Origin: Candidatus Limnocylindria bacterium
Lineage (GTDB): Bacteria > Chloroflexota > Limnocylindria > P2-11E
Reading direction: 5' to 3'
Length of the DNA stretch: 53,799 bases
Assembly (NCBI GenBank): GCA_036523395.1
Contig: DATDEH010000074.1
Span: 1 to 53,799 of the forward strand
Each line of letters begins with the position of its first letter. Positions within the stretch are counted from its first letter, which is position 1. The notes under the pieces were generated by a model that saw only the letters and a program-made list of their open reading frames with translations, searched no databases and was not told the origin of the DNA. The position numbers and the translations under genes were made by a program. This document shows, one piece after another, positions 26,189 through 32,779 of this stretch.

Positions 26189-26267
26189 CCTTGTCGCACG
26201 AAATAGCAGGCCGTTTGACGCTTTTGTGTGACAACACAGACGGGCGCTTGCGCGTAGATGTATCCGC
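26189..26267 (+). promoter_or_regulatory. conserved 5' leader of LAGLIDADG element, copy A
   Basis: This leader is shared with copy B (32702-32779, minus strand). It has CCTTGTCGCACGAAATAGCAG at the start and TTTGTGTGACAACACA about 14 nt later, identical or nearly so in both copies, then GCGTAGAT before the coding region. TTGTCGCAC (26191-26199) pairs with GTGTGACAA (26226-26234) around a 26-nt loop. One pair is G-U here where copy B has A-U, which fits an RNA hairpin. Distance from the left arm to the start is 77 nt, against 76 in copy B. Confidence 0.65.
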
Positions 26268-27008
26268 ATGGGAAAGGGTCGGGCCAAGGGGCTGACGGCG
26301 GCGACGGATCCGCGTGTAGCACGCAGGGCGGAAGGGCATCGGGGAAAACTGTATGTCCGACCGCACTCCATTGGAGAAACTCGGGTGGAGTGTTCGCACC
26401 GCGACGACGCTGCCCCTGGCCTGGTCAGACCCGATGGCATACGTCGTTGGGCTCACCGCAACCGATGGTTGCCTCACTCACGGTCGACGCCGCTCGATCA
26501 ACTTCAAGTCAGAAGACTTCGAGCTCGTGTCACGTTACTTGGCCCTGCTTGGACGGACGAACAGGATCGGCGTGGAGCTGACCCGCGAAGGCAACTTCGT
26601 TTACCACACGCAGTTCGGCGATGCACGCCTGACGTCCCCGACTCGAATGTGTCCCACCTCGTCCGAGGACTGCTCGACGGTGATGGATCGATCCTGAATT
26701 ACATGTACGAGGGAACGGGTAAGGCAAGGGGCACGTATGAGGCACTCCGAACAGTCTTCAACTCGGCGAGTCGCGCACACATCGAATGGCTCCGCGCACG
26801 TCTACGGTCGCAACTAGAGATCTGGGGATCGATCGGCACGCACCAGCCGAGCAACCGGATCCATCCGATGCATCGGCTCGCGTACGCGAACCACGAGTCG
26901 TCTCGACTCCTGCCATGGCTGTATTCGGGACTCGATGTTCCGTGCCTCCAGCGAAAACGAGTCATCTGGGACTCCTACGCAGCGCGCCATGAACTCGACC
27001 CGTCGTAA
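26268..27008 (+). pseudogene. LAGLIDADG homing endonuclease-like gene, copy A, frameshifted
   Basis: The N-terminus MGKGRAKGLTAATDPRVARR lies in one frame. From about 26360 homology moves to the next frame (RTPLEKLGW, then the first LAGLIDADG motif MAYVVGLTATDGCL and INFKSEDFELVSRYLALLGR). From about 26630 it returns to the first frame (DVPDSNVSHLVRGLLDGDGS, the second motif, to the stop). Compared with copy B, the second break removes about 20 codons (the YRWLLTIGLMPRKSLVLGG region). The first is probably one inserted base. So two lesions separate N-terminal, first and second motif parts; an internal ATG at 26353 could still yield a truncated product. The stop is 15 nt before tRNA-Leu(GAG). 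Confidence 0.75.
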
Positions 27009-27023
27009 ACTGAAGTCTCACCC

Positions 27024-27107
27024 GCCCAGGTGGTGTAATTGGCAGCCACGCGAGTTCGAGGGGCTCGTGTCCGAAAGGACGTGCGGGTTCAAGTCCCGCC
27101 CTGGGCA
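27024..27107 (+). tRNA. tRNA-Leu (anticodon GAG), C33 variant
   Basis: Class II tRNA: acceptor GCCCAGG/CCTGGGC, D-stem GTG/CAC, anticodon stem CGAGT/GCTCG (last pair T-G), long variable arm GTCC-GAAA-GGAC, T-arm GCGGG-TTCAAGT-CCCGC, discriminator A, no encoded CCA. The anticodon loop aligns as TCGAGGG, so the anticodon is GAG but position 33 is C and not the near-universal T. It follows element A by 15 nt with no separate promoter visible. Confidence 0.88.
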
Positions 27108-27122
27108 CCGACGCCGTCCCGA

Positions 27123-31796: not shown

Positions 31797-31814
31797 GGAG
31801 GTCGAAACCGACTG

Positions 31815-31898
31815 TGCCGACGGCGGGACTCGAACCCGCACCCGCTTACGCGGACCGCCTCCTGAAGACGGCGCCTCAGCCAATTGGGCTACGTCGGC
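31815..31898 (-). tRNA. tRNA-Leu (anticodon CAG)
   Basis: Class II cloverleaf: acceptor GCCGACG/CGTCGGC, D-stem GCC/GGC, anticodon stem CCGTC/GGCGG with loop TTCAGGA (anticodon CAG, normal T33), variable arm CCGC-GTAA-GCGG, T-arm GCGGG-TTCGAGT-CCCGC, discriminator A. CCA not encoded. It lies 12 nt downstream of the LAGLIDADG copy B stop on the same strand. Confidence 0.96.
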
Positions 31899-31910
31899 GA
31901 AGATTCAATT

Positions 31911-32701
31911 CTACGGCGGCGTCGCGTTTCGGGGCACGCTGATCGAATGGCGGGTGGCGTATCCCGCCCACTTGCGCCACTTGCGTTCCAGCCGTGGAAC
32001 GTCCTGGTCCGCATACATCGCCGGAAGCAAGACGCGCGAAGCCTGGTTCCCGTACTTCAACCGATAGAACGGATTCTTGTGACCCTCTCGCTCGAACTCC
32101 TCTATGTACCCGGAGAGGCGTAGGGCGCAATAGAGCCGTGCTTGGATCCACTCGACGTGTCTGCGGCTGGCGGAGCTGAAGAACGTCCATAGCCGCTCGT
32201 ATCGGTAGCTTCGGTACGTGCTGACCGTCGGGTGGTGGATCAGGGTGTAGATCGTCCCGTCGCCGTCGATGAGGCCGCGCGCGAGCGGCATCAGATGCTC
32301 GTCCGGCACGTCGATCCCGCCTAGTACGAGACTCTTTCGCGGCATGAGCCCGATCGTCAGCAGCCAACGGTAGAGGACGACGTGGCTGAACTGCCCTCGA
32401 AACGCCCAGCCTCCGAAGTCGCTCTCAAAGCGGCGATACCGGATGTTCGGCCTGTCGACGAGGCCGAGGAGAGTGCGCATGAGGTCTTCGTCTTTGAGAT
32501 GAAGGCGATGTGGCGGCCGTCTCCGTACAGGCAGCCGTCGGTCGCGATCAGGCCGACCGCGTACGCCAGTCGAGCCGTCCACTCGATCGCCCCGGGAGTG
32601 GTGCCTCGAGGTCGGTACTGAAGGCCGCGATGCGCCGCTGCCGCGCGTGCTACACGCCCGTCAGTCGTCGCTGTGAGGCCCCTGCTCCATCCCTTTCCGA
32701 T
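31911..32701 (-). pseudogene. LAGLIDADG homing endonuclease-like gene, copy B, frameshifted
   Basis: The N-terminal part GKGWSRGLTATTDGRVARAA, HRGLQYRPRGTTPGAIEW and the first motif LAYAVGLIATDGCL are in one frame as far as IAFISK. At about 32492-32497 the homology moves by one base to DEDLMRTLLGLVDRPNIRYRR and continues to the second motif LARGLIDGDGTIY and the C-terminus. One base is therefore missing there. The codon matching the ATG of copy A is ATC at 32701, so the start is lost too. About 40% of residues match copy A by eye. Its stop lies 12 nt before tRNA-Leu(CAG). Confidence 0.75.
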
Positions 32702-32779
32702 CCACGTATCTACGCACAGATCGGCACGCTTGTGTTGTCACACAAATGTGTCGGCAGGCTGCTATTTCGTGTGACAAGG
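32702..32779 (-). promoter_or_regulatory. conserved 5' leader of LAGLIDADG element, copy B
   Basis: Counterpart of the leader at 26189-26267. The arms TTGTCACAC (32777-32769) and GTGTGACAA (32743-32735) form a perfect 9-bp inverted repeat around 25 nt. CGAAATAGCAG and TTTGTGTGACAACACA are identical to copy A. It ends 15 bp from the stop of the solute-binding protein gene. Confidence 0.65.

Follow-up and report, generated by a model that had tools for sequence, protein, structure and literature searches.

The window analysed here is a 53,799-nucleotide stretch of DNA from Candidatus Limnocylindria bacterium, and contains two related genes that each end directly before a tRNA-Leu gene. Copy A (26268–27008, + strand) is followed by tRNA-Leu(GAG) (27024–27109, +), and copy B (31911–32701, − strand) by tRNA-Leu(CAG) (31814–31898, −). 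A likely −10 box for each tRNA overlaps the end of the preceding gene, TAAACT (27006–27011, +) providing the TAA stop codon of copy A and TAGAAT (31908–31913, −) the TAG stop codon of copy B. In the other inspected copies in line with a tRNA, the stop codon is likewise on or beside the likely −10 box, and sites lacking the gene have TACAAT or TAGAAT where copy A has TAAACT. Both copies are frameshifted in this assembly, copy A has also suffered an internal deletion, and copy B has ATC (32701–32699) in place of the expected ATG start codon. The endonuclease copies in the window seem inactive, so the operator described below may be a remnant there.

On sequence comparison, both open reading frames are LAGLIDADG proteins. 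The tRNA-Leu-linked family to which they belong has two LAGLIDADG motifs, VGLxATDGC and RGLLDGDGS, and the A-T-D-G and D-G-D-G residues, including the conserved acidic residue, were invariant among 15 members, 14 of which matched PF14528 (LAGLIDADG_3). The predicted structure (pLDDT 83) has a tandem alpha-beta-beta-alpha-beta-beta-alpha fold with PDB 2dch as the best match (E value 1.7e-11). This is I-Tsp061I, which was the nearest relative by sequence as well as by fold, and which has the same two motifs and repeated fold. Unlike LAGLIDADG homing endonuclease genes that lie within an intron or intein, the genes in the window are free-standing beside a tRNA-Leu gene and preceded by a host operator. 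A phage origin was considered and rejected, as the relatives found in viral contigs were all weak, those of near full length having ≤28 % identity.

Members of the family were found in 25 of 177 genomes of the class in a sequence search for which the copy B query was read through its own frameshift. A wider scan of public genomes found 50 relatives with at least 30 % identity in Chloroflexota, Patescibacteria, Omnitrophota, Elusimicrobiota and unnamed bacteria. A tRNA-Leu gene was within approximately 200 nt in 47 of these, the remaining three reaching contig ends, and all 47 relatives with enough flanking sequence thus adjoin a tRNA-Leu. The anticodon was GAG, CAG, CAA, TAG or TAA, and the endonuclease gene was found on either strand and on either side of the tRNA. 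The members from Patescibacteria, Omnitrophota and Elusimicrobia (L164–L186) also adjoin a tRNA-Leu, and some are downstream of it. Empty sites were found in the window's genus, at both tRNA genes in G142, at GAG in G140 and at CAG in G139 and G141. Nearly all of the genomes compared are metagenome assemblies. Occupied and empty sites within one genus are consistent with site-specific cleavage and homing by the tRNA-Leu-linked endonucleases, which would be expected of such proteins. At the site syntenic with 31814–31898, the tRNA-Leu(CAG) genes of relatives (L097–L128) frequently had only 66–77 % identity and frequently pointed the other way. Replacement of the tRNA gene, and not inversion, seems to have taken place there, whether or not an endonuclease is present.

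The preliminary description had noted, in the leader of each copy, a 9 bp inverted repeat enclosing 25–26 nt, and this was confirmed by coordinates. In copy A the arms are TTGTCGCAC (26191–26199) and GTGTGACAA (26226–26234) with a spacer of 26 nt, and in copy B they are TTGTCACAC (32777–32769) and GTGTGACAA (32743–32735) with a spacer of 25 nt. As described, position 6 of the left arm forms a G-T pair in copy A and an A-T pair in copy B, and CGAAATAGCAG and TTTGTGTGACAACACA are identical between the two copies. The distances of 77 and 76 nt from arm to start codon were also correct, except that copy B has the ATC noted above at the position of the start codon. Approximately 1.6 such repeats (9 bp, ≤1 mismatch, spacer ≤40 nt) are expected by chance per 79 nt of the window, so the observation in a single copy is weak and any significance must come from relatives. 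When the leaders were folded as RNA, neither was better than shuffled sequences (z −0.58 for copy A and −0.25 for copy B), and the stem of copy B was missing from its best predicted fold. With repeats at the level of chance and folds at the level of shuffles, the two copies alone prove little, and the leaders of relatives were needed.

Relatives did support a conserved functional element with paired changes that belongs to the endonuclease gene. The arms are TTGTCRCAC and GTGTGACAA in copies A and B, L031 and L032, TTGTCACCA and TGGTGACAG in L015, and CTGTCGTCA and TGACGACAG in genus g2. Across 23 distinct operator sequences, two-sided changes were found at six of the nine pairs, and 91.8 % of cells were paired compared with 77 % in shuffles. 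These changes, which include G-U pairs, are compatible with a structured RNA leader of the endonuclease mRNA, as proposed in the preliminary description. Such a leader (which comEA, see below, would then have as well) could be the target of an RNA-binding protein or act as a switch, and three half-sites could form two alternative hairpins. The CAG form of the leader in g2 also folds well (z −2.3). However, any inverted repeat in DNA yields the same paired changes, so the covariation is real without being diagnostic of RNA. Cells with G-U (17) outnumbered those with A-C (8) in alignment A2, an excess that is not significant given shared ancestry. The stem is also not kept in all further copies, but is broken in L020 (A-C), in L035 and L118 (two C-A each), and in L030 and L039. 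In L023 and L039, full half-sites are found only as direct repeats 22 bp apart, and direct pairs were also seen in L118 (23 bp apart) and L027 (22 bp apart), while inverted pairs are approximately 10 or 30–32 bp apart. The half-site spacings step by helical turns, which fits a DNA operator. An Rfam search of the leader gave no match.

The position of a conserved TAGAT points the same way. Copies A and B, L015, L016, L017, L020, L022, L025, L031 and L042 have this −10-like element 4–8 nt ahead of the start codon, on the downstream side of the repeat. If it is part of the promoter, the mRNA would be nearly leaderless and the repeat would not be transcribed. In copy A, half-sites TTGTCGCACGAAA (left, 26191–26203, +) and TTTTGTGTGACAA (right, 26222–26234, +) precede TAGAT at 26255–26259 (+), 8 nt before the start codon; in copy B, TTGTCACACGAAA (left, 32765–32777, −) and TTTGTGTGACAA (right, 32735–32746, −) precede TAGAT at 32708–32712 (−), which is likewise a putative −10 element. 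Phased half-sites ahead of a probable near-leaderless promoter would constitute a DNA operator, and the stem breaks, direct repeats and helical spacing fit this arrangement. With the copy A and B leaders folding no better than shuffles and the same element present at comEA-comEC, we consider a functional RNA leader unlikely.

The element was also found without the endonuclease gene, at the DNA-uptake genes comEA-comEC and at other promoters. When the family's genomes were searched for TGTCGTCA-N4-TGACGACA, most g2 genomes had one exact or near-exact site in addition to those in the endonuclease leaders. This extra site follows leuS and a DUF6941 gene and is approximately 60 nt before comEA-comEC, which were identified by their SLBB and HHH_3 domains and their Competence domain. 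Across the 11 g2 genomes searched, the 12-mer TTTTGACGACAG was located at 18 sites. Seventeen of these sites are at comEA or in tRNA-Leu endonuclease leaders (one of them in a short contig end repeating a leader) and one is inside the selD coding sequence, while reversed-pattern controls gave one match overall. In two genomes, G138 and G150, the operator was present at comEA and no endonuclease member was found.

The comEA promoter of the window's genus (CCGTCACACGAACGTGTGACGG in G000) combines the half-sites present in copy A and copy B. In the window's own genome, the comEA operator GTCACACGAACGTGTGAC (L301) includes a half-site that differs from the left half-site of copy A at one position. 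Plain similarity between the copy A and B leaders and the comEA promoter of their own genome was not significant, so it is the half-site search, together with the relatives, that links these two copies to comEA. A genome-wide search for GTCRCAYGAA-N0-30-GTGTGACR gave 12 matches in five genomes of the window's genus, and the reversed-pattern control gave none. Three of the matches are at comEA, five are in tRNA-Leu endonuclease leaders (including copies A and B), two precede a gene for a secreted protein of 175 aa in two genomes, and two precede a second LAGLIDADG gene, also in two genomes. The second LAGLIDADG gene (L366:1567–2196 and L365:591–1454 (−)) encodes two GFFDGEG motifs, and no tRNA was found beside it. 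CGAAATAGCAG is also found upstream of this gene, as in copies A and B. In addition, three different genes of the window's genus (L015, L359, L365, L366 and L370) have GGCGAGGGACAGACA or a near-match after the operator.

The presence of the element at these promoters bears on two further explanations. The preliminary description had suggested that the repeat might be a protein-binding end of the element, and a related possibility is that it is a transposon-like terminal repeat or the recognition site of the endonuclease itself. Comparison with empty tRNA sites (L099, L097 and L102) revealed that the leader and the gene are present or absent together, and at the empty sites that were read the leader was gone along with the gene. 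However, there is no second copy of the repeat at the tRNA end of the element, and the same sequence is found at the comEA and secreted-protein promoters, outside the element. A terminal repeat or recognition site is therefore most improbable; the proposal of protein-binding DNA came close to the reading we prefer and that of a transposon end did not hold. The second explanation is autoregulation, as some homing endonucleases bind their own leader. LAGLIDADG proteins bind DNA, and the leader does differ between copies, but the operator is present at other genes and at comEA in the two genomes with no member found. Furthermore, divergent proteins within one genome have one operator, while L015, the closest relative of copy B, has another. 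We consider that the endonuclease is very unlikely to be the protein that binds.

The sequence of the operator varies among lineages, and it does so in step at comEA and at the endonuclease genes. In all lineages taken together, the 8-mers common to the endonuclease leader and the comEA promoter exceeded expectation within the genome (permutation p=0.0003). A genome from another family, G127, provided a test, as its endonuclease leaders carry a wholly different motif (GGATGTCATCC and CGGATGAT). As predicted beforehand, the comEA promoter of G127 was found to carry the same motif as the endonuclease leaders, with matched stretches of 16–31 nt. A search of the G127 genome for TCGGATGATSRCC gave only four exact matches, at comEA, in two endonuclease leaders and at a gene whose product is homologous (40 % identity) to the secreted protein of the window's genus. 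No Pfam family above the cut-off was found for the secreted protein (~170 aa; L370:1564–2088, L359 and L373:948–1454 (−)). As it has the comEA operator in two lineages in which the operators differ, it is a candidate competence-related protein. In g3 and g5 there was no recognisable element at comEA nor at the endonuclease gene. The exceptions in genomes that have the operator were two leaders without the element, L100 (CAA, G140) and L124 (TAG, G137).

Together, these data indicate that the element is probably a competence-type operator-promoter of the host that acts as DNA and not as RNA, and that the endonuclease genes use it to be expressed with the uptake machinery. The operator might instead serve another host response, for example to DNA damage, with comEA as an incidental target, and the small regulon and a regulator that is so far only postulated would agree with this; to our knowledge no competence regulator has been described in Chloroflexota. 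No DNA-repair gene was found among the exact sites examined in the genome-wide searches, and we regard this alternative as improbable.

From the common, lineage-matched sequence element and its anatomy we infer protein binding, activation, competence timing, cutting and homing, and a competence operator might work as follows. A host regulator of comEA-comEC would bind half-sites arranged on consecutive helical turns, most often as an inverted pair, located some 20–35 bp upstream of the −10-like box, and would most likely activate the promoter just downstream. The tRNA-Leu endonuclease genes would have acquired or kept this operator, leading to co-expression with the uptake machinery, such that the endonuclease would be present while transforming DNA recombines with the chromosome. 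It could then cut an incoming element-free tRNA-Leu allele, and the element would be copied into that allele or would resist replacement. The sharing of the operator suggests that selfish DNA-cutting genes are turned on during the uptake of foreign DNA.

Competence promoters are known elsewhere, with ComK boxes in Bacillus, ComE sites in pneumococcus and CRP-S sites in Haemophilus and Vibrio. The operator resembles them in being upstream of DNA-uptake genes, and its phased half-sites recall the ComK and ComE sites. It differs in sequence, in its Chloroflexota host and in being shared with selfish endonuclease genes. HEARO and OMEGA RNAs are structured RNAs beside an endonuclease gene, and the element described here is likewise conserved, non-coding and adjoining such a gene. 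However, it had no Rfam match, the endonuclease is LAGLIDADG and not HNH or IscB, and the operator is also upstream of unrelated genes. Homing endonucleases need an occupied and an empty allele to meet, which in bacteria mostly means DNA uptake. In the open-access literature, we found nothing that directly described this tRNA-Leu family or placed a homing endonuclease within a competence regulon. LAGLIDADG genes of the same superfamily have been found in rRNA insertions of CPR bacteria (PMC11270868), a group that also holds members of the tRNA-Leu family; those genes are inside rRNA genes and tRNA is unmentioned in that paper. Population data from the soil of one grassland meadow have linked ComEC loci with recombination (PMC7305173).

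The evidence is about evenly balanced on whether the following broader view holds. At least two separate types of homing endonuclease would have captured the host competence operator and would cut on the arrival of transforming DNA. For the tRNA-Leu family, which is spread over several phyla, natural transformation would be the vehicle in these lineages, where the family would track changes in the sequence of the operator. If this is true, cutting exactly at DNA uptake would directly answer the question of how such selfish genes spread among uncultured soil bacteria, and the parasite would track the host regulon as the sequence of the operator changes. The work also yields an operator and a candidate for a new competence protein, and offers a system in which competence control could be tested in Chloroflexota.
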